From NCBI RefSeq assembly GCF_015689335.1, contig NZ_CP065053.1, positions 1,054,001 to 1,118,000 on the forward strand: a stretch of DNA of 64,000 bases, read 5' to 3'. The notes beneath the pieces are model-generated. The model was not told the DNA's origin and ran no database searches. It saw nothing but the letters and a program-made list of their open reading frames with translations. A program made the position numbers and the translations under genes. This stretch comes from Massilia antarctica (GTDB taxonomy: Bacteria; Pseudomonadota; Gammaproteobacteria; Burkholderiales; Burkholderiaceae_D). This document shows, one piece after another, positions 23,258 to 37,159 of the stretch (positions are counted from its first letter, which is position 1; every line of letters begins with the position of its first letter).

Positions 23258-24070
23258 TCAGGGCTTGTTGTCGCCATCCTTGTCGTGCCGGGCGCTCTCG
23301 ACCTTGCGCAGTTCGGCGGCGCGGTCCTTTTCCTGGTCCGCTTTGGCGAAGTCCTCGTTGAGTGGGAGCTCCACTTCCATGCGGCGCACCTGGACCAGCC
23401 TGAGCACCCCGCGCGCCAGGCCCGTGCCGAGCACATGGCCGCCGAAGCTCAGGTCGTCCGAGATGAAATGCCAGTGGTAACCCGGCACGCTGATGCCCTT
23501 GCTGAGGGCCGGGCTGCGGATGCCGATCATGGTCCCCGTCACGGTGTCGCGCGAAAACACGTTCTGCGACTTCGACACCTCGGCCAGGGGCCGGTACGGC
23601 CGGGTCTGCGGGGGAATGGCGCGCGTCGAGATGGCGCTGAACTGGCCCTTGATCTCGAGCGCATAAAACATGTTCTTGTTGCCGAGCTGCTGGTCGGCCA
23701 GCGCTTCGATCTGCGCCAGGCTGGCGCTGGGCCCGAGCGCCACGGTCTGGGTCGGCACAAACGGCAGCACGTACGCGAGCGGCGTGCGCTCCGACGGCGC
23801 CGCCACGCGCACCGATCCATCGGAGCGCACGTGGTAGAACTTGCCATCGTGGACCACCATTTCGCCATCGAGGTGGTTATAGGTGCCGATCCCGAAGTTG
23901 CCCCTGGTGCCCAGCTGGGCGACGGTCAGCTCGCCATCGTACACGCCGGCCAGCAGCGCATCGATGGTCGAATACACGTACAAGGCCGGTTCCTGCGCGG
24001 CGCTGCCCAAGCTGGCCAGGCCGAGCGCGAGGCCCGCGAGGCAGCGGCGATACGAACGTCCAGATTGCAT
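23258..24070 (-). CDS. budA: Acetolactate decarboxylase with signal peptide
   Basis: 270 residues. STIDALLAGVYDGELTV and NHLDGEMVV are hallmarks of acetolactate decarboxylase, which turns acetolactate into acetoin and CO2. The zinc ligands are visible as H199-W-H201 and H212 (GGH). ATG 24070 has AAAAAGGAT upstream. An N-terminal signal peptide (about 1-25, ending GSAAQ) implies export, as for some Bacillus-type enzymes. No acetolactate synthase or butanediol dehydrogenase gene is in the window, so the usual bud operon is absent. Confidence 0.9.
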   Translation of the reverse strand: MQSGRSYRRCLAGLALGLASLGSAAQEPALYVYSTIDALLAGVYDGELTVAQLGTRGNFGIGTYNHLDGEMVVHDGKFYHVRSDGSVRVAAPSERTPLAYVLPFVPTQTVALGPSASLAQIEALADQQLGNKNMFYALEIKGQFSAISTRAIPPQTRPYRPLAEVSKSQNVFSRDTVTGTMIGIRSPALSKGISVPGYHWHFISDDLSFGGHVLGTGLARGVLRLVQVRRMEVELPLNEDFAKADQEKDRAAELRKVESARHDKDGDNKP

Positions 24071-24200
24071 TGCAATATCCTTTTTTTTATATTCATGGGA
24101 ACCCCGGGCGGCGCTCCTTGCCTGTATTAGATGCCGGCCCGCGCCCGGATGCAAGCTCCGGCGCCGGCCACCACCCCAGCCGCATGCCGGCGTGCCCGCT

Positions 24201-25651
24201 TCACAACAGCTTGCCCGCGGCCTGCCGGCGCAGGTAGCGCCGCAGCGCTTCGCTCGGCGTCCTGAGCGCGGCGGCGCAGCGTCCGGTGTCGCCACCGTGC
24301 GCCGCCAGCGCCGCCGCGATCTCGGCCGGCGCGATCTGGCCGATCTGGCGGATGGCGGGATGCTTCCCGATCAGCTTGTACATCGACGGCCGCGACACCC
24401 CCAGCGCCAGCGCCGCGTTGCGGATCAGCCAGCCGTTGGCTTCGAGCGCGTCCAGCACCGCCTGTCCGCTCAGTTGTCCCAGCCGGACGCGCGCCGTCCG
24501 CTCCGCCACACCCGGCACCAGCGCATCGAAAGCCAGCGGCTGGCCCGCCTGCGCGGCGCTGAGGGCGCGCTGCACCACCTTGCCGAGCTGGCGCACATTA
24601 CCGGGCCAGTCGTAGTTGCACAGCTGGCTGATGAACGCCAGCGGCAGCTCGGGCGCGCTGCCGGTGCGCGTGCTCCAGGCTTGCATGAAGTGCAGCGCCA
24701 GCACGCCGATATCGCAGCGCCGCTCGCGCAGGGGCGGCAGGCGCACCACCAGCGCTTCGAGGCGGCGCAGCAGGGACTGATTGAAGCTGCCATCATGCAG
24801 ATCGTGGTCGCTGGCGCCGATCAGGCGGGCCCGCGCCGCCTGATCGGCGCGCGCACCGACGGGGCGGTACTCGCCGGTCTTGAGCACGCGCAGCAGCTGC
24901 GCCTGTACCGCCTGCGGCGCCGTGCCTATCTTGTCGAGAAACAGGGTACCGCCGCCGACCCGGGCCAAGGCGCCCGTATCCGCGCCAAACAGCTCGGCTA
25001 CCGCCTGCGTTTCGCTCAGGGTCGCCAGGTTGACCGTCACCATCGGCCCGCGGCAGCGCGCGCTGGCTTGATGGATCGCCTGCGCGGCGAGTTCCTTGCC
25101 GCTGCCCGCTTCGCCCAGCAGCAGCACCGGCAGGTCAGTCGCGGCCACCTGCCGGATCAGCTCGCGCACGCGGATGGCGGCGCTGCCGACCCCGTGCACG
25201 GCGGCGATGGCGCTGGCCTGGGGCAGGCGGTCCATCCAGTGCACGCACAGCAGCACCACGCCACCGAGGCCGATGACCAGGCCCGCGTCCACCTGTTCGG
25301 GCGTGCAGCGCACGGGTGCGCCGGCCAGCATGGCGCCGTTCAGTTCCACCCGCATGCGGCTTTGCGGCGGCAGCAGGCTCACGCCATGGTCGCGGTGGCG
25401 CCGCAAGCGCAGCGCATCGCGCGCGATGCGGCGGTGCCCGAGCGCTTGCGCGTTGCCCGCGAGGCCGCCGAACAGCGGCGCGAAGCGATTGACATCGATG
25501 TCGCCGCTGCCCGCCGCAGCGATGAACTGCTCGCCGATGCGCTGCGCCTGCGGATGCCACAGGATGGTCAGCGCCAGCCGCAGCGCGGCGCGGCCGGCCA
25601 GCGCGCAGACCGGCGAGGCCAGGGTATTTTCGGCATCGATCAGGGACAAGC

Positions 25652-25655
<4 letters not shown>
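24201..25655 (-). CDS. Degenerate sigma54-type AAA+ regulator downstream of kdpE
   Basis: 484 residues. The N-terminal ~155 residues are unlike known sensor domains. An AAA+ domain of the enhancer-binding-protein family follows, with Walker A GEAGSGKE, then a Fis-like HTH near 425-445 (NAALALGVSRPSMYKLIG). The GAFTGA loop that contacts sigma54 is missing: ELFGADTGAL runs straight into GGGTLFLDKIG, about 14 residues shorter than usual. The Walker B Glu is Lys. It is therefore unlikely to activate sigma54 by ATP hydrolysis and may just bind DNA. It overlaps kdpE by ATGA, so it is made with the Kdp sensor pair. Confidence 0.75.
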
Positions 25656-26359
<704 letters not shown>

Positions 26360-26376: not shown

Positions 26377-29061
26377 TCAGGTTTCAGGTTCGGGGCCGGG
26401 CGGCGGGGTTCCGAGCGGCAGGTTCACTACAAGCGAGGCGCCGCCGATGGGCGACGCGCAAGCCTCGATTTTACCGCCATGCGCCTCGATGATCGCGCGG
26501 CAGATCGCCAGCCCCAGGCCCACGCCCGGTTTCGCCGATTCGCGCTCGCCGCGCGCGAACTTCTCGAACAGGGTCTCGGCCCGTCCCGCGGGGAAGCCCG
26601 GGCCGTCGTCGTCGACGCGCAATTGCAGCCATGCGCCATGAACCGCGCCGGCCACCACGATGGTCGAACCGGGCGGCGTGTACTTGGCGGCGTTCTCCAG
26701 CAGGTTGTACAACACCCGCTCGATCAGTACCGCGTCGAAGCGCACCAGCGGCAGGCCGGGCGCGAGCGCGGTGCGCACCACATGCGCGCGCAGCGGCGCG
26801 GCGCAGGCGCGCAGGGCGCTACCGACCACTTCTTCGAGCGGGTGCCACTGCATGTCGAAGGTGATCTGCCCGCTCTGGATGCGCGCCATCTCCAGCAGGT
26901 TCGCCACCAGGGCGCTCATGCGCAGCGCTTCCTCATGCAGGATGACGGCCATCTCGCGCTGCGGCGCCGCCAGTGCGGGACTGGAGTCGGCCAGCGATTC
27001 AGAAAGGCCCACCAGCAAGGTCAAGGGCGTGCGCAGGTCGTGCGACAGCGCCGCCAGCAGCGAATTGCGCAGGCGTTCGGACTCCATGTTTACCAGCGCA
27101 TCCTGCGCCACCTCGATGTAGTGCACCCGTTCGAGCGCGATGGCGGCCAGCGCGGCGAAGGTGTCGAGCTGGGTGCGCTGTTCGGGAATGAGCATCCAGC
27201 GCTGTTGTTCCGGTGCGATGGCCAGCACGCCGCGCGTGCGCATCGGGGCCACCAGCGGCAGGTAGAACAAGGGACTGGCCGGCAGGGTGCCGCTGCCCAA
27301 GCCCGCGCTTTGCGCGTGGTCGAAGGCCCATTGGGCAATACCGATGTCGGCCGTGGCGCCGGGCGGCGCTTGCAGGCGGCCTTCGGCATCGGGCACCAGC
27401 AGGGTGGCGCCGGCGCGGAAGGTGCGTCCGATGGCGGCGCGGGTGGCGTCCACGATTTGCTCGGTCTGGAGCGCGCCGGAGAGTTCGCGCGCGAATTCGT
27501 ACAGCGCGCGCGAACGCTGCTCGCGGTGCGCCGCCACGCGTGCCTGGAAACGCAAGCCGGCCGTCAGGTGGCCGGTGATCAGGCCGACCGCCAGCATGAC
27601 GCCGAAGGTTATCAGGTACTCCAGGTCGGAGACGGCAAAGTCGAAGCGCGGCGTGACGAAGAAAAAGTCGAAGCACGCCACGGACAGGCAGGTGCACAGC
27701 ACCGACGGTCCGCGCCCGAAGCGCACCGCCACCAGCACCACCACCAGCAGGAGCAGCATGACGATGTTGGCCAGGTCGACGTAGCCGACCAGGGGCGCAA
27801 GCAGCAGCGCGGCAGCCAGGCTGGCCGCGCCCGACCAGGCATAGGCCGCGGCGCGCCGTTTGCCGCTGTCGAAGGCCAGGGTGACGGTGTTCGTTTCCGG
27901 CGCCGCCGCGGCCGGACGCGGCTTGCCGCCGCCGACTTCGATCAGGTCGATATCGGGCGCGATGCCGGCGATGCGGTCGCGGTGCGCGCGCCGCCAGGGC
28001 CAGGATGGGTGCGCGCGCGCCAGCACCAGTTTCGACATATTGTGCTCGCGCGCATAGCCGACGATGGCGTCGGCGATGTCGCGCCCCGCCAGCACCGCCG
28101 TGGTCGCGCCCAGTTCCTGCGCCAGGCGCAAGGTCTTGAGGGTCAGTTCGCGCCGGACCGCCGGATTGCGCTGCAGGGCCGGCGTTTCCACGTACACGGC
28201 ATGCCAGTCGGCGCCCAGCTGGCCCGCCAGGCGCGCGGTGCTGCGCACCACATGCTCGGCATCGGCACGCGGCCCCACGCAGGCCAGCAGCGCGCCGCCG
28301 GTCTTCCAGACCGTGCCGATCGATTGTTCGATGCGGTAGGCGCGCACGTCATCTTCGACCCGGTCGGCGGTACGGCGCAGGGCCAGCTCGCGCAGGGCGA
28401 TCAGGTTCCCTTTGCGGAAAAAATTCTTCGCGGCGCGTTCGGCCTGTTCCGGCCGATACACCTTGCCGCCGCGCAGGCGCGCCAGCAATTCGTCGGCCGG
28501 CAGGTCGACCAGCACCACTTCGTCGGCGCCGTCGAACACGGTGTCGGGCACGGTTTCGGCCACGCGCACGCCAGTGATGCCGCCGACCACGTCGTTCAGG
28601 CTGTCCAGGTGCTGGACGTTGACAGTGGTGAAGACGTCGATGCCGGCCGCAAGCAGCTCTTCCACATCCTGCCAGCGCTTGGGGTGGCGCGAGCCGGGCG
28701 CGTTGGAGTGGGCCAGCTCGTCGACCAGGACCAGGGACGGCGCGGCGGCCAGGGCGGCATCGAGGTCGAACTCGCGCAGCGCCTGGCCGCGATGGGCGAG
28801 CATGGCCGGGGCGAGGAGGTCCAGGCCATCGAGCAGGGCGGCGGTGTCGGGGCGGCCGTGGGTTTCGAGCACGCCGACCAGCACCGCCACGCCCTCGTCC
28901 CGCAGCTTGCGGGCGGCGACCAGCATGGCGCAGGTCTTGCCGACGCCGGCCGAGGCGCCGAAATAGATGCGCAGCTTGCCGCGCGCGGCCTTGCGCTCGT
29001 CGGTCTGGACCTGGGCCAGCAGGGCGTCGGGGTCGGCGCGTTGGGTTTCAGTTGGGGACAT
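26377..29061 (-). CDS. kdpD: KdpD sensor histidine kinase
   Basis: 894 residues: N-terminal KdpD domain with Walker A GASAGVGKT (35-43), a universal-stress-like domain (about 250-380), four membrane helices (about 400-500), GAF-like region, HisKA with H674 (LSHDLRTPLT) and HATPase with GVGLGLAICRAI. Length matches full-size KdpD. It senses low K+ or ionic stress and controls KdpE. It begins 14 bp after kdpC. Confidence 0.96.
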   Translation of the reverse strand: MSPTETQRADPDALLAQVQTDERKAARGKLRIYFGASAGVGKTCAMLVAARKLRDEGVAVLVGVLETHGRPDTAALLDGLDLLAPAMLAHRGQALREFDLDAALAAAPSLVLVDELAHSNAPGSRHPKRWQDVEELLAAGIDVFTTVNVQHLDSLNDVVGGITGVRVAETVPDTVFDGADEVVLVDLPADELLARLRGGKVYRPEQAERAAKNFFRKGNLIALRELALRRTADRVEDDVRAYRIEQSIGTVWKTGGALLACVGPRADAEHVVRSTARLAGQLGADWHAVYVETPALQRNPAVRRELTLKTLRLAQELGATTAVLAGRDIADAIVGYAREHNMSKLVLARAHPSWPWRRAHRDRIAGIAPDIDLIEVGGGKPRPAAAAPETNTVTLAFDSGKRRAAAYAWSGAASLAAALLLAPLVGYVDLANIVMLLLLVVVLVAVRFGRGPSVLCTCLSVACFDFFFVTPRFDFAVSDLEYLITFGVMLAVGLITGHLTAGLRFQARVAAHREQRSRALYEFARELSGALQTEQIVDATRAAIGRTFRAGATLLVPDAEGRLQAPPGATADIGIAQWAFDHAQSAGLGSGTLPASPLFYLPLVAPMRTRGVLAIAPEQQRWMLIPEQRTQLDTFAALAAIALERVHYIEVAQDALVNMESERLRNSLLAALSHDLRTPLTLLVGLSESLADSSPALAAPQREMAVILHEEALRMSALVANLLEMARIQSGQITFDMQWHPLEEVVGSALRACAAPLRAHVVRTALAPGLPLVRFDAVLIERVLYNLLENAAKYTPPGSTIVVAGAVHGAWLQLRVDDDGPGFPAGRAETLFEKFARGERESAKPGVGLGLAICRAIIEAHGGKIEACASPIGGASLVVNLPLGTPPPGPEPET

Positions 29062-29075
29062 GGCCGCCTTTGTCG

Positions 29076-29660
29076 CTAATCCGCCCGAGTATACGCCCTG
29101 TCCAGCGCGAGATTGAGCGCCAGCACATTCACGCGCGCTTCCCCGAACACGCCAAACAGCGGCAAGATCGCCGTTGCCCCGATCAGCGCCTCGACCCGCT
29201 CGCGCGGCAGCGTGCGTGCGCGCGCCACCCTGCCCGCCTGGTAGCGCGCCGCCGCCAGGCTGATCTCCGGATCGAGCCCGCTGGCCGAGGCGGTGACCAG
29301 GTCCACCGGTACCGGCGCCGTGTTGCCCGGATCGGCCGCGCGCAGCGCCGCCACCCTGCCCTGCACCGCCGCCATCAGCGCCGGGTTGAGCGGTCCCTGG
29401 TTCGAGCCGGCACTGGCGATCGCGTTATAGGCCATCGGTGCGGTCGCCGACGGACGTCCCCAAAAATAGCCGGGCGACGCAAACGATTGCCCGATCAGGC
29501 GCGAGCCGACCGTCCGGCCGCCCTGCGTCACCAGGCTGCCGCGCACCTGGTCGGGAAAGGCGGCGTAGCCGATGCCGGTCACCGCCAGCGGATACAGCCC
29601 GCCCACGACCAGGGTCAGCGCGCCGAACAGCATGATGGCGGGGCGAAAAGTGGTTTTCAT
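29076..29660 (-). CDS. kdpC: Potassium-transporting ATPase subunit C
   Basis: 194 residues: one N-terminal membrane helix (about 8-30), then the periplasmic domain with SRLIGQSF, GRPSAT and PVDLVTASASGLDPEIS, all characteristic of KdpC. It joins KdpA and KdpB in the K+ pump. It starts 13 bp after kdpB. Confidence 0.95.
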   Translation of the reverse strand: MKTTFRPAIMLFGALTLVVGGLYPLAVTGIGYAAFPDQVRGSLVTQGGRTVGSRLIGQSFASPGYFWGRPSATAPMAYNAIASAGSNQGPLNPALMAAVQGRVAALRAADPGNTAPVPVDLVTASASGLDPEISLAAARYQAGRVARARTLPRERVEALIGATAILPLFGVFGEARVNVLALNLALDRAYTRAD

Positions 29661-29673
29661 GACGATGTCCTTT

Positions 29674-31776
29674 CTAGACCAGGTGAAGCGCCGACAGCAG
29701 CATGTCGATCAGCTTGATGCCGATGAACGGCAGCACGATGCCGCCCCCACCGTAAATGAGGATGTTCCGGCGCAGCAGGGCCGCCGCGCCGATGGCCCGG
29801 TACGGCACGCCCTTGAGCGCCAGCGGAATCAGGACCACGATGATGAGGGCATTGAAAATTACCGCCGACAGGATGGCCGAATCGGGGCTGGCCAGGCGCA
29901 TCACGTCCAGGCTTTTCAGCTGCGGATACGTGCCCACGAAGGCCGCCGGAATGATCGCAAAATACTTGGCGATATCGTTCGCGATCGAGAACGTGGTGAG
30001 TGAACCGCGCGTCATCAGCATCTGCTTGCCGATTTCGACGATTTCGAGCAGCTTGGTCGGATTCGAATCCAGGTCGACCATGTTGCCGGCCTCCTTGGCG
30101 GCCTGGGTGCCCGAGTTCATGGCCACCGCCACGTCGGCCTGGGCCAGCGCCGGCGCGTCGTTGGTGCCGTCGCCGGTCATCGCCACCAGCCGGCCTTCGG
30201 CCTGGTAGCCGCGAATCAGTTTGAGCTTGTCCTCCGGCGTGGCCTCGGCCAGGAAATCGTCCACCCCCGCTTCGGCGGCAATCGCGGCGGCGGTCAGCCT
30301 GTTGTCGCCGGTGATCATCACGGTCTTGATGCCCATGCGGCGCAGCTCGGCGAAGCGTTCGCGGATGCCGCCCTTGACGATATCCTTCAACTCCACCACG
30401 CCCATCACACGGCCATCGTCGGCCACCACCAGCGGCGTGCTGCCACGGCGCGCCACGTCGTCGACCGTGCGCGCCATCTCGGGCGGATACGCCAGGCCGA
30501 GCGCCTCCACATGCTTTTTCACCGACTCGGCCGCACCCTTGCGCACCTGGCGCGCGCCGGCATCGATGCCGCTCATGCGCGTGTTGGCGCTAAATGGAAT
30601 GAAGCTGGCCTGCAAACTGGCCATGTCGCGTTCGCGGATATCGAAGCGCTGCTTGGCCAGCACCACGATCGAGCGCCCTTCCGGGGTTTCGTCGGCCAGC
30701 GACGCCAGTTGCGCCGCGTCGGCCAGTTCGCGCTCGCTCACGCCCGGCGCGGGGAAGAAACCCGCAGCCTGGCGGTTGCCCAGGGTGATGGTGCCGGTTT
30801 TATCGAGCAGCAGCACGTCAACGTCGCCGGCCGCTTCCACCGCGCGGCCCGAGGTGGCGATCACGTTGGCGCCCATCATGCGGCTCATGCCGGCCACGCC
30901 GATCGACGACAGCAGCGCACCGATGGTGGTCGGGATCAGGCACACCAGCAGCGCGATCAGCACCGTCACGCCGACCGGTTTGCCGGCGCCGGCGGCGGCC
31001 ACGCCGAACAGCGAAAACGGCAACAGGGTCACGGTGACGACCAAAAACACGATACTCAAGGCCACCAGCAGGATGGTGAGGGCGATTTCGTTGGGTGTCT
31101 TCTGGCGCTTGGCGCCTTCGACCATCGAGATCATGCGGTCGAGGAAAGTCTCGCCCGGGTTGGCCGTCACGCGCACCACCAGCCAGTCCGACAGCACGCG
31201 GGTGCCGCCGGTGACGGCCGAAAAATCGCCGCCCGACTCGCGGATGACCGGCGCCGATTCGCCCGTGATGGCGCTTTCATCGACCGACGCCACGCCTTCG
31301 ATGACTTCCCCGTCGATGGGAATCACATCGCCCGCTTCGACCAGGATGGTGTGGCCCTTGCGCAGATCGGCGCCGGGAAGCGGCAGCCAGGTGGTACCGT
31401 ATCTGGGCGTGGCCAATTGCTTGGCGCTGACGCTTTGCTTCAGTCCGCGCAAGGACGCGGCCTGCGCCTTGCTGCGCCCTTCAGCCAGCGCTTCGGCGAA
31501 ATTCGCGAACAGCACGGTGAACCACAGCCAGATGGCAATCGCCAGGGTAAAGCCGCTGCCGCTGTCGCCTTTGCCGGCGACGGCCTGGAAGTACATCAAG
31601 GTGGTGAGGATGCTGCCGACGTAGACGACGAACATGACGGGGCTGCGCAACTGCGTGCGCGGTCCCAGCTTCAGCACGGCGTCGAGGATGGCGGGGCCGA
31701 TCAGCGCCGTATCGAACAAGGTGAGCGTCTTGCGGGTGGTGGCTGCCGGTGGCAGCGGGAGTGCTTGCGACATCAT
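29674..31776 (-). CDS. kdpB: Potassium-transporting P-type ATPase subunit B
   Basis: 700 residues, the catalytic subunit. D325 in [10 protein letters not shown] is the phosphorylation site, TGES lies in the actuator domain, and [15 protein letters not shown] is the hinge. ATG 31776 is followed at once by a second ATG at 31773, which has better spacing to GGAG. It sits in the inner membrane and hydrolyses ATP to drive K+ uptake through KdpA. Confidence 0.97.
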
Positions 31777-31791: not shown

Positions 31792-33573
31792 TTATTTGGT
31801 ATAGAGCTGCAAATGCTCGGCAACGGGGCCGAGCGCCAGCGCCGGGACGTAATTGAGCACGCCGACCAGCATGACCACGCCCACCAGCAGGCCGACGAAG
31901 ACCGGGCCGTGGGTCGGCATGGTGCCGGCATTGGCTTGCAGGCGCGGCTTGGCGGCCAGCGCGCCGGCAATCGCCAGCACCGGTACGATCACGGCAAAGC
32001 GCCCGAACCACATGGCAATTGCCAGCATGGTGTTATAGAACGGCGTATTGGCCGACAAGCCCGCGAAGGCGCTGCCGTTGTTGTTGGCCGCCGAACTGAA
32101 GGCGTACAGGATCTCCGAGAAGCCGTGCGCGCCGGGGTTGGAAATGCCGGCCCGGCCCGCGTCCAGCATCACCGCCAGCGCGGTCCCGCTCAGCACCAGC
32201 AGCGGCGTAACCAGGATCACGATCGCGCTCATTTTCATTTCATAGGCCTGAATTTTCTTGCCCAGGTATTCCGGCGTGCGTCCGATCATCAGCCCGGCGA
32301 TGAACACCGCCATGATGGCGAATACCAGCATTCCGTACAGGCCCGAGCCGACTCCGCCGAACACCACTTCGCCCAGCTGCATGAGCAGCATCGGCACCAT
32401 GCCGCCAATGGGCGTGAATGAATCGTGCATGGCGTTGACGGCGCCGCAGGAGGCGGCGGTGGTCACGGCGGCGAACAGGGACGAGGCGGCGATGCCGAAG
32501 CGCGCTTCCTTGCCTTCCATATTGCCGCCGGCCTGAAAGCTGCCAGCGCCCTGGTCGACGCCCAGCGCCGCCAGTTGCGGGTGCACGGCCTGTTCCGCGC
32601 TCATGAGCACCGCAGCGGCGACCACGAAGATCAGGCTCATGGCAGCCAGCACGGCCCAGCCCTGGCGCGGGTCGCCCACCATGCGCCCGAAGGTAAAGCA
32701 CAGCGCGGCGGGAATGAGGAAAATCGCCAGCATCTGGACAAAGTTCGACAGCGCGGTCGGATTCTCGTAGGGATGGGCGGAGTTGGCGTTGAAGAAGCCG
32801 CCGCCGTTGGTGCCGATCAGCTTGATCGCTTCCTGCGACGCGACCGGCCCCATGGCGATGGTCTGGGTGGTGGCGAGCTTCGCTTCAAGGATCGCCTTGC
32901 CATCGGCGCCGGGCGTGGAGACCGCGTACGCGACCGGATCGAGCAGCTGCACTTCCTGGTAGCTGTTGAAGTTCTGGACCACGCCCTGCCCCATCAGGAA
33001 CACGGCGAACAGCAGCGACAGCGGCAGCAGCACGTACAAGGTGGAGCGCGTGAGATCGGCCCAGAAGTTGCCGATCGATGTAGCCGAGCGCGCACTGAAG
33101 CCGCGGATCAGGGCGAAGGCGACGGCCATGCCGGTGGCGGCGGAAAAGAAATTCTGGCCCGCCAGCGCCACCATCTGGGTCAGGTAGCTCATGGTCTGTT
33201 CGCCGCCGTAGCCCTGCCAGTTGGTGTTGGCGACAAAGCTGACGGCGGTATTGAACGAGGAATCGGGACTGACGTTGGCCAGCGCCTGGGGATTGAGCGG
33301 CAGGAAGGCCTGCAAGCGCTGCGCGCCGTACACGAACAGGGCGCCCAGGCCGTTAAACACCAGCAGCGCGCGCGCATACGATTGCCAGCCCATGCCGGCG
33401 CCGGGCGACACGCCGGCGGCGCGGTACAGCAGCCGTTCGAGCGGCGCCAGCCAGCCGAAGCCGGGTACGGCGCCGCCCTCGGCGACCTTGGCCAACTGGC
33501 GGCCCAGCGGCCAGGCCAGCGCCAGCAGTACGGCCAAAAAGGCGCCCAGCAGCGCCATCGATTGCGTGGTCAT
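31792..33573 (-). CDS. kdpA: Potassium-transporting ATPase subunit A
   Basis: 593 residues with about ten membrane segments and the four selectivity-filter-like loops, among them [13 protein letters not shown] and [15 protein letters not shown]. It forms the K+ channel of the complex. ATG 33573 has GGAGGAT upstream and shares a base with the kdpF stop (TGATG). The frame is open further upstream but overlaps kdpF there. Confidence 0.97.
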
Positions 33574-33659
33574 CACAGATCCTCCGCGTTCAGCAGCGCA
33601 TGTGCCAGGTAAGCCAGCAGGCCGGCTGCGACAAGCCCGCCGATATAGATGAGGGCCAT
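33573..33659 (-). CDS. kdpF: KdpF small membrane subunit
   Basis: 28 residues, one hydrophobic helix: [20 protein letters not shown] and then ALLNAEDL. KdpF is about 29 residues in E. coli and stabilises the KdpABC complex. Its start overlaps the stop of the upstream small ORF by one base (TAATG), and its stop overlaps kdpA. Confidence 0.9.
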
Positions 33660-33751
33660 TATTTTTTCTCCCCCAGTGAGGCGCAGCCGGCCGCGAGAGC
33701 GCAGCTGAGGCCGAAAAAGAGCAGGATCGCTCCAATGAAAATCAAGTCCAT
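33659..33751 (-). CDS. 30-residue membrane protein at the head of the kdp operon
   Basis: [20 protein letters not shown] is followed by [10 protein letters not shown]. It has one hydrophobic helix and two Cys on the distal side. ATG 33751 follows GAGGGTGAT. The one-base stop/start overlap with kdpF shows it is the first cistron of the operon. Similar short ORFs precede kdpF in other betaproteobacteria as far as I recall, but no function has been assigned. The AGC motif is not a convincing lipobox. Confidence 0.75.
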
Positions 33752-33801
33752 ATCACCCTCGAACGAATTGGTTTTGTTATTGATGAGCGTATCGGCAAGC
33801 G

Positions 33802-33818
33802 TCTAAAAACGGTGTAAA
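33802..33818 (-). promoter_or_regulatory. KdpE-box-like site, proximal, kdp promoter
   Basis: Minus strand TTTACACCGTTTTTAGA matches 13 of 17 positions of the E. coli KdpE site TTTATACTTTTTTTACA as I recall it. It lies 51 bp upstream of the first kdp start codon. Confidence 0.55.
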
Positions 33819-33833
33819 GAGTTGCCGCGCAGG

Positions 33834-33850
33834 TGTAAACAAAGCGTAAA
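33834..33850 (-). promoter_or_regulatory. KdpE-box-like site, distal, kdp promoter
   Basis: Minus strand TTTACGCTTTGTTTACA matches 14 of 17 positions of the same site. It lies 32 bp, about three helical turns, from the proximal box, so both would face the same side of the DNA. Confidence 0.65.
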
Positions 33851-33858
33851 CGCCGGCA

Positions 33859-34587
33859 TTAAAAGGTCGTGCCGACGGTCAGCAGCAGCGCGCGTTTGCC
33901 GAGGAATTTGCCGTTCGCCGGCGAGGCGTAGGCGGCTTTGCCGGCGTCGGTGCCGATCGCTGCCAGCGCCACGCTTGCCACGCCGAACTCCTTGGTGATG
34001 CCGATCTTGTAGTCGGTGTAGCTGGCGGCGCCATGGTGGGCCACGCGCTGGCGCCCGGCGTGCAGGTTGAGCACGAGGCCCTTGCCAAGGGCGGGATTGG
34101 CGGCCAGGTCGAGGTAGCCGCTATGTTGGCTGTCGACGTAGCCGAACAGGTTGCTGAGCGCGTGGGAATACTTGACCAGGGCGACGCCGTACCCGAGCTG
34201 GCCGTAGACCTCGGTGGTGTTGGCGTTGGCGAAGCCGGCTATGTGGCCGAGCTTGTTGGATGGGTAGACATAGGTCAGCACGCCGGCGTCGTAAGCGATG
34301 CCGGGCGCCAGTTCGCCGCGCTTGCCGCCATAGAGGTCGAGTTCGACCTTGCCGCCGCCGCCGGCGTCGCCGGTCCAGGTGATGGTCGAGGCCCAGGCGC
34401 CCGCGTACCAGCCGGACGGCTTGTGCACCAGGTCGGCCCCGCCCTGCAACGCCGGCTGGAGGCGGGTTTGCGAGATGCCGCGATAGCGATAGTCGCTGGT
34501 GAGGGCCGCGTTAAGACTGAAGTCGTCCGCGGCCGATGCTGCCTGCGCGGACACCGACAGCAGGGCTGCGAGAATGGCAATCTTCAT
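33859..34587 (-). CDS. TorF-family (Gcw_chp) outer-membrane protein
   Basis: 242 residues: signal peptide (about 1-19, ASA-ADD), then a beta-barrel with the SDYRYRGISQT signature near the N-terminus and a C-terminal Phe (TVGTTF), as in the Gcw_chp/TorF putative porins. ATG 34587 has GAAAGAAG upstream; the open frame before it is not coding. It lies upstream of the kdp operon on the same strand, with its own pair of KdpE-like boxes, so it may be an outer-membrane K+ entry route made under K+ limitation. That role is inference. Confidence 0.85.
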   Translation of the reverse strand: MKIAILAALLSVSAQAASAADDFSLNAALTSDYRYRGISQTRLQPALQGGADLVHKPSGWYAGAWASTITWTGDAGGGGKVELDLYGGKRGELAPGIAYDAGVLTYVYPSNKLGHIAGFANANTTEVYGQLGYGVALVKYSHALSNLFGYVDSQHSGYLDLAANPALGKGLVLNLHAGRQRVAHHGAASYTDYKIGITKEFGVASVALAAIGTDAGKAAYASPANGKFLGKRALLLTVGTTF

Positions 34588-34646
34588 GGTGCTTCTTTCT
34601 TTGCTGTGATGGGAAACGGAGAGACGGCAAATCGTATCGGCCCGGC

Positions 34647-34663
34647 CGTAAAAAATTTCTAAA
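34647..34663 (-). promoter_or_regulatory. KdpE-box-like site, proximal, torF promoter
   Basis: Minus strand TTTAGAAATTTTTTACG matches 13 of 17 positions of the KdpE site. It lies 60 bp upstream of the torF start. Confidence 0.5.
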
Positions 34664-34678
34664 GAGTTAGGGCGCTGC

Positions 34679-34695
34679 CGTAAAAGAAATGTAAA
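34679..34695 (-). promoter_or_regulatory. KdpE-box-like site, distal, torF promoter
   Basis: Minus strand TTTACATTTCTTTTACG matches 13 of 17 positions and is 32 bp from the proximal box, the same spacing as at the kdp promoter. It is also 34 bp from the start of the divergent acetyltransferase gene. Confidence 0.55.
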
Positions 34696-34728
34696 AATGC
34701 ACGCTTCAAGGAAGCCAAGGGAGTAGCG

Positions 34729-35202
34729 GTGGGAAAGCATGAGACGGCGATGATTCGCAACGCGTCGATGGAGGATGTGGCGATGCTGGCGGCGATCGAA
34801 GAAGCGAGCTTCAGCGGCGACCGGGTCAGCCGGCGCAGTTTCCGGCATCTTCTGTCGCAAGGAAATTCGGTGACCCTGATCGACGCGGCGGCGGGCGAGA
34901 TACGTGGCTACCTGACCTTGCTGTTTCGCGCGAATACGACGCGGGCACGGGTGTACACCATTGCCACGGCGGCGGCGTGGAAAGGCCGCGGCGTGGCGGC
35001 GGGACTGGTGCGGGCGGCGGAACAGGCGGCACTGGCACGCGGATGCACGGCGCTGTATCTGGAGATTCGCAAGGATAACGTGGCGTCGATCGGGCTGTTT
35101 ACGAACAATAGCTATCGGGTGTTCGGGGAGTATGAGGAGTATTATGAGGATGGTATGGATGCCTGGCGGATGGAGAAATTGTTTCCCCGGCCAACAGCGT
35201 AG
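34729..35202 (+). CDS. GNAT-family N-acetyltransferase (RimI-like)
   Basis: 157 residues with an acetyl-CoA binding loop (WKGRGVAAGLVRAAEQAA) and RimI-like LYLEIRKDNVASIGLFTNNSY. It transfers acetyl from acetyl-CoA to an amine, possibly a protein N-terminus. The start is GTG 34729, supported by AGGGAG; ATG 34750 is an alternative with poorer spacing. It is divergent from torF. Confidence 0.88.
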   Translation: MGKHETAMIRNASMEDVAMLAAIEEASFSGDRVSRRSFRHLLSQGNSVTLIDAAAGEIRGYLTLLFRANTTRARVYTIATAAAWKGRGVAAGLVRAAEQAALARGCTALYLEIRKDNVASIGLFTNNSYRVFGEYEEYYEDGMDAWRMEKLFPRPTA

Positions 35203-35323: not shown

Positions 35324-37159
35324 ATGCAAACCCAGATGCCGGCATCGTCCGAACAAGAAAAAAAGCAACAGGCCAGCGCCGCCTCTCAGGCAGCTCCATT
35401 GGTCGGCGCCCCCCCAGCCTCGTTTGAGGACAAGCGCCCGCAGGCGGTAGCGCAACGGTGCTTGCAAGCCATGATCGACCGCAGTTCGCGTGTACAGCGC
35501 ATGCGGGCGATGGCGGCGCCTGCCAATCCTCAGGCGTCTGTATCAACGCCTGCGCAATTGAAGGAAGTGCCCGCGCCGAACACAAACGGTACGGGCTTGC
35601 CCGAGCGGCTTAAAAGCGGCGTTGAGTCATTATCCGGCATGAGCATGGATCATGTGAAAGTGCACTACAACTCGTCCAAGCCAGCGCAATTACATGCCCA
35701 CGCTTATGCGCAGGGCAGCGACATTCATGTGGCGCCAGGTCAGGAACGCCATTTGCCGCATGAAGCCTGGCACGTCGTTCAGCAACAGCAAGGTCGGGTA
35801 CAAGCCACCGCGCAATACGCTGGCGCGCCGGTCAACGACAACCCCGGTCTCGAATCCGAAGCCGACCGCATGGGAGCCATGGCGAGCAACCTGGGGGACG
35901 CGATGACACCGGCGCAATTATCGACGCCGGCGCGGCAAGCTGGCCATGTCGGCATCTCGCAACAGCAGCCGGTTCAACGGCGTGTCGGGTTTGAATTTCA
36001 AACCAACATCAGATTAAAAGACAAGAACGACGAGACGCCGCCATTCAAGACAGCGCTCCTGACAAGAGACAACTGGCATATTGAATGTGACGCCGGCGAC
36101 CTTGAATTCGTCACCAAGCCACTCAACGATTACGACGATGTCAATCAAGTGCTCGGGGAAATCGTCCATTGGGCGACCATGCTTTCTCAGATAGAAGGAA
36201 AAGTGTCGGACGAACAGCGGGAGCGACTCGGCTTCCTTCTGGAGTCCAAGTATGAAGATGAGGTCGAGGATGGGAAAGAGCAGTTGAAAGCCAGCGAAGC
36301 AAGGCCGCTTGCCGCAATGGCCGTCAACAAAGGATCGCTTCTTGAATCCATGTCCGCCACCGGGGACGCGGGGATAATCACGGCCGCGCCGCAAACAACG
36401 ATCGGCATTCCCTTGGACCGCATCATCTCCGCATTGCACCTGGTGGCGTCCCAGCAAATCACCGTTGGCGCCAATACCGGTGCGGCGAAGCAAGTCAAAC
36501 TGGCATCCGCACAAAACGGCGCGGAGCCGCCGCTGGTATCGGCGCACCATGCCACCGTCAAGCTCGTGGCAGGCTTGCGTGAAGCGCGCCCGCTCATCAA
36601 GGACGAGTCGACCTGGCGCAAGCTTGAAGGCATCATCGCTTTGGCCGCGAGCTACATACGCACCGCGAATGTGGCGGGACGCGGCGGGTACGGCTATACC
36701 AAAATGGTCGCACCCATGATGAGCCGTGTAAATTTCAGCGCCCTGCTCGCCGAACTGCCCGAGGAAGTGCAAGTCTTCTTCAACACGTCCAACGTAGCGG
36801 CCGCCTCCGGCATCGGCGAGGACGCCCCCATGTTCGGCCACAAGGGCGCCAAGGTGGAATTCGGTAAAACCACGCTGGGGCCGACGCTGAGAGTATGGGT
36901 GGACAGTATTCGTGCCGGCCACGATGCGCTTTCCATATTGGGCTTGAAGCACGGCGTGGGGACGGAAGCCTTCATCAAGGACTCGGAAAGCATGGGCCAG
37001 TTCAATGAGCTGGACCAGGAAGATCCGAATGTTGAGGTGCCGCTGGTCCCGATCGAGTTGCGCCAGATCAGCAAGGCGGTCCCGGTATCGCATTGGCACG
37101 ACCTTGCCATCGAAATCATGATCTTTGCAAATGCCTTGTTAAAAGCGAAGTTCTTCTGA
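35324..37159 (+). CDS. DUF4157 (eCIS core domain) putative effector
   Basis: 611 residues, no signal peptide, low-complexity Gln/Ala N-terminus. A DUF4157 domain spans about 90-190: LSGMSMDHVKVHYNSSKPAQ, DIHVAPGQE and H146-E-A-W-H150, a zincin-type HExxH, with LESEADRMG after it. DUF4157 proteins are commonly cargo or toxins of extracellular contractile injection systems. The remaining ~390 residues begin GFEFQTNI and contain LEFVTKPLNDY, loosely like amidoligase (glutamine-synthetase fold) enzymes; this is weak. No eCIS structural genes are in the window. ATG 35324 has GAGG about 10 bases upstream. Confidence 0.8.
   Translation: MQTQMPASSEQEKKQQASAASQAAPLVGAPPASFEDKRPQAVAQRCLQAMIDRSSRVQRMRAMAAPANPQASVSTPAQLKEVPAPNTNGTGLPERLKSGVESLSGMSMDHVKVHYNSSKPAQLHAHAYAQGSDIHVAPGQERHLPHEAWHVVQQQQGRVQATAQYAGAPVNDNPGLESEADRMGAMASNLGDAMTPAQLSTPARQAGHVGISQQQPVQRRVGFEFQTNIRLKDKNDETPPFKTALLTRDNWHIECDAGDLEFVTKPLNDYDDVNQVLGEIVHWATMLSQIEGKVSDEQRERLGFLLESKYEDEVEDGKEQLKASEARPLAAMAVNKGSLLESMSATGDAGIITAAPQTTIGIPLDRIISALHLVASQQITVGANTGAAKQVKLASAQNGAEPPLVSAHHATVKLVAGLREARPLIKDESTWRKLEGIIALAASYIRTANVAGRGGYGYTKMVAPMMSRVNFSALLAELPEEVQVFFNTSNVAAASGIGEDAPMFGHKGAKVEFGKTTLGPTLRVWVDSIRAGHDALSILGLKHGVGTEAFIKDSESMGQFNELDQEDPNVEVPLVPIELRQISKAVPVSHWHDLAIEIMIFANALLKAKFF

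Follow-up and report, generated by a model that had tools for sequence, protein, structure and literature searches.

The 64,000-nucleotide stretch of the Massilia antarctica genome analysed here (positions 1,054,001 to 1,118,000 of contig NZ_CP065053.1; hereafter the window) carries the genes of the Kdp potassium (K+) pump next to torF, a putative porin gene, and the present analysis concerns the candidate control of both by the response regulator KdpE. On the minus strand of this window (the genome being a single contig of 7.43 Mb), the gene order is torF, a 30-amino-acid (aa) open reading frame (ORF), kdpF, kdpA, kdpB, kdpC, kdpD and kdpE. The torF gene (33859..34587) encodes a 242-aa putative porin of the TIGR02001/PF09694 family, scoring 172.8 bits against a curated TIGR02001 cut-off of 47.15 and 182.5 bits against the Pfam model. 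For kdpF (33573..33659), PF09604 was matched at 33.4 bits and TIGR02115 at 26.1 bits, the latter slightly below its cut-off of 26.85, while kdpA (31792..33573) matched TIGR00680 at 773.5 bits, and kdpB (29674..31776) and kdpC (29076..29660) were named by sequence and position rather than by family library. The sensor kinase gene kdpD (26377..29061) matched PF02702 and NF007793 (1089.4 bits, slightly below the cut-off of 1123), and kdpE (25652..26359), whose product is the proposed binder of the four boxes described below, matched NF007820 at 350.2 bits (cut-off 325). The closest named kdp loci are those of M. mucilaginosa and M. aquatica, with 91% KdpA identity.

Paired KdpE-like boxes upstream of kdp and torF

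A first-pass annotation of this DNA had claimed that four 17-mers match the E. coli KdpE site at 13–14 of 17 positions and form pairs exactly 32 bp apart at the kdp and torF promoters. Both statements held: one 17-mer matches at 14/17 and three at 13/17, where the annotation had placed them, and both distances measured 32 bp. Upstream of kdp, these are box 1 (TTTACGCTTTGTTTACA, 33834..33850, minus strand, 14/17), which would occupy the same place as the E. coli site, and box 2 (TTTACACCGTTTTTAGA, 33802..33818, minus strand, 13/17). Upstream of torF, they are box 1 (TTTACATTTCTTTTACG, 34679..34695, minus strand, 13/17; TTTA-N7-TTTA) and, 32 bp downstream and over the presumed –35 position, box 2 (TTTAGAAATTTTTTACG, 34647..34663, minus strand, 13/17). 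On both strands of the window, no other 17-mer reached at least 13/17, and three further ones, one of them overlapping a torF box, stood at 12/17.

The E. coli KdpE site is described as a pair of imperfect repeats of 6 bp each, TTTATA and TTTACA, which are separated by 5 bp and bound by two KdpE DNA-binding domains, half-sites being defined as direct repeats of TTTA(T/C)A with an 11-bp period (PMC3264566). Beyond what the first-pass annotation had seen, each of the four boxes in the window contains this repeat, i.e., TTTA-N7-TTTA with two half-sites 11 bp apart, the last two half-site bases being variable (e.g., TTTACA, TTTACG, TTTAGA). Moreover, both promoters share a –10-like element and the same layout, with 15 bp separating the two boxes and another 10 bp leading from box 2 to TACGCT for kdp (33786..33791, minus strand; TANNNT is kept in relatives) or TACGAT for torF (34631..34636, minus strand), at the offset also seen in E. 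coli kdp. Across the whole composite, 44 of 66 bases are identical between kdp and torF, and no sigma-70 promoter with a –35 element was found within 33500–34900. If transcription started about 7 bases after the –10 element, box 1 would span –71 to –55, where the E. coli site lies, and box 2 would cover –35. Such a layout would be consistent with KdpE taking over the role of the –35 contact in activation.

Specificity of the composite site

Within the 7.43-Mb genome, the four-half-site pattern (at most one mismatch) matched only at kdp and torF, both with zero mismatches, and these two remained the only matches when the –10 element was added and up to three mismatches were allowed (one match for the reversed control). 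Since this pattern was derived from the kdp and torF sites themselves, it is circular, and a matrix built from relatives served as the non-circular test. For this purpose, 81 kdp loci were sampled, i.e., those of 80 relatives (one of them a Cellvibrio) and the window, and a 66-column matrix was trained on 66 of the 81 kdp promoters, all from other species; the window and its closest kin (L002 and L003) were left out deliberately, and 12 more fell below the score rule. This matrix gave 77.8 bits for kdp (33785–33850) and 63.4 bits for torF (34630–34695), with the next matches in the window at –3.0 bits (a 2-bp shift of the torF site) and –3.3 bits (an unrelated place). The torF site still scored 58.1 bits under a second background and pseudocount setting, the E. 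coli kdp promoter reached 53.3 bits with the same training promoters and another background, and the 141 bp upstream of torF, subjected to dinucleotide shuffling 20,000 times, gave at most 19.2 bits. No composite site was found at the four torF paralogues of the window genome, and the idea that every torF has such boxes was thus rejected.

The KdpE encoded in the window shares 66% identity with its E. coli counterpart and retains the recognition residues Y191, R193, I194, H198, R200, T215 and T217, so that the recognition helix is conserved. Conservation of R193 is reported to be limited to KdpE orthologues, and an R193 mutant is reported not to bind (PMC3264566). The E. coli kdpFABC promoter is alike in its box 1 half-sites (TTTATA/TTTACA, 11 bp apart), in a TACCCT at the same offset, and in the identity of the KdpE recognition residues.

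Conservation of the site at relocated torF genes

Among the 81 loci, torF stands immediately before kdp in 17 and at a greater upstream distance in another 17; in 4 it is placed between kdpC and kdpD, in 25 it follows kdpE (with a gap of 123–343 bp), in 1 it is elsewhere, and in 17 it was not found. Of the 34 upstream torF loci, 30 could be judged, since in the others (L013, L019, L038 and L063) the contig starts within ~0.6 kb of torF. All 30 carry a composite site (26–72 bits), which precedes either torF itself or a short operon that runs into torF; this count includes L041, where a 40.8-bit site lies 854 bp before torF. Boxes lacking conservation in relatives had been named in advance as evidence that would overturn the prediction, and the opposite was observed. 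None of the 29 torF genes that lie within the kdp operon or immediately after it had a composite site of its own; those behind kdpE are probably co-transcribed with kdp, judging from strand and gap. In L023, torF faces the other way and has its own boxes, 33 bp apart, which score 8.7 bits with the fixed-spacing matrix. Four kdp operons (L033, L053, L069 and L080) are without a site of their own, and in each the site precedes the gene just upstream. Every judged torF near kdp thus appears to be tied to KdpE-type control, via its own boxes or by its position in or behind the operon.

A quick TorF tree, with unlinked paralogues included and many of its branches weak, required 15 position changes, and its starred branches alone forced 2–3 changes each for three arrangements. 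Since the tree forces repeated position changes, the coupling of torF to KdpE has probably outlived several relocations of the gene. In one relative, the torF match is split over two reading frames (L009:8968-9706), and the gene may be interrupted or mis-sequenced.

Distribution of site and porin in the family

When 116 genomes of the family were searched for the composite pattern (at most one mismatch, anywhere in the genome), it was present in 62 of the 70 genomes with kdpA versus 1 of the 46 without, with 120 matches in total versus 8 for the reversed control. In the exception (G019), the site precedes an ORF that looks, by eye, like the membrane and kinase portion of KdpD. In 40 of the 70 kdp-bearing genomes, a close torF (E ≤ 1e-40) is located no more than 15 kb from kdpA. 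Three g20 genomes carry a distant TorF (36% identity) ~10 kb on and in opposite orientation, behind a separate site that scores 34.6, 15.8 and 19.8 bits; in each of the three, the kdp and torF promoters have the box 2 variant RGATTWAA in common. TorF-like genes (40% and 31%) follow kdpC in G078 and G007, and in G111 a BBP2 porin gene stands directly after kdpE, under a 29.2-bit site.

Two TorF copies (E ≤ 1e-40) occur in 40 of the 59 kdp-bearing genomes with a match, and all 33 kdp-lacking genomes with a match have one. Since a second copy is thus confined to genomes with kdp (40/59 vs. 0/33), these data suggest that the kdp-type TorF copy was gained and lost together with kdp. Elsewhere in the class, 15 kdp loci representing other families were inspected, and the composite exceeded 15 bits at 7 of their kdp promoters.

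The TorF barrel

The predicted structure of TorF is a 12-strand barrel with a KdgM/NanC-like fold (predicted local distance difference test score of 88.3) and an acid-rich lumen. By sequence, TorF did not group with KdgM/NanC, as a Pfam search (E ≤ 0.001) returned PF09694 alone, and no match at E ≤ 1 was found among PDB sequences. KdgM and NanC are anion-preferring sugar-acid channels; they share the fold of the TorF model at 6–12% identity in the aligned parts, whereas the modelled TorF lumen is acid-rich. The TorF family comprises putative porins, of which the window member is linked to kdp and to KdpE-type sites, and the Shewanella gene that carries the name torF presumably belongs to the same family. 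The BBP2/OmpL-like porins (PF07642) form another Pfam family; a member was seen behind kdpE under a KdpE-type site in G111, and another within the kdp operon in G146.

Further genes behind KdpE-type sites and around the locus

Keeping at most two per locus, 51 further sites above 15 bits were found in 38 of the 81 loci, including those before operons leading into torF. Where the genes were inspected, the sites mainly precede DHDPS-family genes (one tested and over the TIGR00674 cut-off, the others called by Pfam or by eye), ParA-like genes (one tested, L120, at 73.1 bits and below the cut-off of NF041546, the rest called by eye) and genes for a ~100-aa protein, two examples of which had no Pfam match. 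DHDPS-family genes under such sites lie at about –280 to –350 (minus strand) from kdpA in L006, L008, L047 and others, about +10.9 kb from kdpA in Janthinobacterium, and more than 1 Mb from kdp in L095 and L124. The ParA-like ATPase genes under KdpE-type sites were seen in L010, L017, L120, L097 and L099, in some cases behind the ~100-aa protein, which has no recognised domain.

One-mismatch sites also precede GNAT genes in L120, L121 and L122 (the L120 protein being a GNAT/DUF3335 fusion), a universal stress protein gene in L133 (G048) and, in L134, a second BBP2 gene, which is unlinked; UspC is reportedly a KdpD/KdpE scaffold in E. coli. No placeable gene was found at the matches in L125, L126, L129, L130 and L132, which may be due to chance. 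Judged from these sites, the KdpE regulon looks wider in relatives, DHDPS-family and ParA-like genes included; in the window genome, only kdp and torF remain at the stringency of the pattern plus the –10 element.

A GNAT gene also lies divergent from torF in the window (34729-35202, plus strand). Its homologues in G110, G087 and G040 are ~380–400 aa long, each behind its own one-mismatch KdpE-type site, and that of G110 is fused to a C39-like peptidase domain (DUF3335); in the 157-aa window protein, a Pfam search revealed no DUF3335-type peptidase domain. Also near the torF region, a 611-aa protein with an eCIS core domain (PF13699) is encoded at 35324-37159 (plus strand). The small hydrophobic 30-aa ORF between the kdp promoter and kdpF (33660..33751, minus strand) gave no match in a Pfam/NCBIfam search; by a crude rule, ORFs resembling it occur in 43 of the 81 loci, and it is possibly an extra Kdp microprotein. 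Beyond kdpE lies a gene of the sigma-54-activator type (PF00158; 24201-25655, minus strand), whose mechanically called start overlaps the kdpE stop by 4 bp and which may be translationally coupled to kdpE; it is followed by an acetolactate decarboxylase gene (23258-24295).

Discussion

The claim of the first-pass annotation that a porin is controlled by KdpE together with kdp thus gains strong support from sequence, i.e., from a specific site, an orthologous KdpE, conservation through torF relocation, and paralogues that are without the site, and it is very likely that KdpE controls torF along with kdp. Under K+ limitation, KdpD would phosphorylate KdpE, and phosphorylated KdpE would bind the two boxes (four half-sites), 32 bp apart, before kdp and torF. 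KdpE at box 2 would replace the missing –35 and recruit RNA polymerase to the TANNNT –10 element, and the levels of pump and barrel would rise together. With the torF stop codon 8 bp ahead of kdp box 1 and no terminator-like site found in this gap, read-through from torF may add to kdp transcription. TorF would then most likely raise the cation permeability of the outer membrane, so that the high-affinity pump is not starved there. It is plausible that a module for scavenging K+ spans both membranes, which would fit both the acid-rich lumen of the model and the repeated occurrence of porins at kdp, and TorF as the putative outer-membrane arm of such scavenging is our best reading of its role. 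Taken as a whole, this explanation (KdpE-driven torF and kdp, with TorF raising cation permeability) is likely.

Several points weigh against it. K+ crosses general porins, and a dedicated channel is not obviously needed. The lumen count, which omits the segment with the invariant R33, R35 and R41, was also acid-rich (–6) for the unlinked paralogue L084, and an acid-rich lumen as a mark of kdp-linked TorF only was rejected on that account. Among the loci with full flanks (window included), torF was not found in 6 of 58, and 30 of the 70 kdp-bearing family genomes are without a close linked torF. Out of 26 such loci read (G047, G064, G079 and G104 being left out), 20 had neither TorF nor BBP2 by a barrel screen that combined tblastn with crude criteria (F or W at the C-terminus, a hydrophobic start and aromatic content) and may have missed cases, some contigs being short. 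A class-wide link between kdp and porins was looked for with such a screen in the 15 kdp loci of other families and found once (G146, with BBP2 between kdpC and kdpD). As a free-standing class-wide signal, the pattern itself fails, with 15 matches outside the window genome versus 14 for the reversed control (G168, G221 and G146 were read; G130, G141, G150, G159, G220, G222 and G250 were left out), and therefore only the matches at kdp promoters are meaningful.

The E. coli system also differs. Its KdpE footprint is described as a single 23-bp element from –72 to –50 (PMC3264566), which leaves box 2 uncovered. In the E. coli sequence, the counterpart of box 2, exactly 32 bp on, is degenerate (TTTGC-N6-TTTGC) and outside that footprint. 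Moreover, kdp is given as the sole E. coli KdpE target by iModulon; 31 peaks from chromatin immunoprecipitation with exonuclease treatment (ChIP-exo) are also reported, and adeP, uxaA and uxaC, with no porin among them, are the further direct targets named (PMC7657598). Unlike the window, the inspected stretch around E. coli kdp has no annotated porin gene.

As for other explanations, it is very improbable that the boxes reflect mere chance in AT-rich DNA or are bound by a different regulator of the OmpR/PhoB family. The half-sites are short and T-rich, and 11-bp direct repeats are presumably used by other members of that family as well, but the shuffles, the uniqueness in the genome, the kdp-trained matrix, the conservation in relatives, and the way in which the composite tracks kdp in the family all speak against both possibilities, which were set aside on the pattern, matrix, shuffle and family-distribution results. 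The PhoB half-site, moreover, differs, being given as TGTCA(T/C) (PMC3264566). Somewhat less remote, yet still improbable, is a torF that is a mere passenger on one torF–kdp transcript, the torF-side site mainly serving kdp as one of two tandem KdpE promoters. The 8-bp distance without a terminator-like site would suit such a transcript, as would L033 and L080, where kdp has lost or lacks a site and the one at torF is the only one left. However, in the 17 loci where torF lies 2.0–3.6 kb upstream, 13 of the 13 judged keep the torF site, and an opposite-strand ORF separates torF from kdp in five listed loci among these 17; the L023 and g20 torF genes, facing the other way with their own boxes, likewise argue against a passenger.

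A further alternative, unlikely but to be taken more seriously than the preceding ones, keeps torF in the KdpE regulon for a purpose other than K+ entry: KdpDE would answer osmotic or other stress, and TorF would adjust the envelope or pass another solute. The sites before DHDPS-family and ParA-like genes, which have no plain K+ role, and those before genes for the ~100-aa protein agree with this, as does the similar lumen charge of the unlinked TorF paralogue. In E. coli, KdpE iModulon activity is reported to rise in osmotic stress and low phosphate (PMC7657598), and the namesake torF of Shewanella is annotated with the trimethylamine N-oxide reductase system (PMC5955497). Such a role is opposed by the repeated presence of porins at kdp, the non-homologous BBP2 included, and by the restriction of the second close TorF copy to kdp-bearing genomes.

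Returning to KdpE-driven K+ scavenging, both the use of two boxes and a porin as KdpE target would be new, because the E. coli footprint excludes box 2 and no porin is among the named targets. In the open-access literature, as covered by titles and the starts of abstracts, no paper joining kdp or KdpE with TorF or another porin was found. For Oxalobacteraceae, and patchily elsewhere, we tentatively put forward that Kdp may be a two-membrane K+ module, in which a second KdpE dimer would replace the –35 element and drive both the pump and a cation-preferring barrel, with close and distant TorF and BBP2 having been recruited separately and the regulon adding DHDPS-family and ParA-like genes.

KdpE, described in E. 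coli with one main target, appears here to run a small regulon that includes an outer-membrane channel. The composite could serve as a simple promoter signature when KdpE regulons are sought in this bacterial family, and a function is suggested for part of the large, little-characterised TorF family. Finally, a neglected question would become testable, i.e., whether growth at micromolar K+ is limited by the supply of K+ through the outer membrane.
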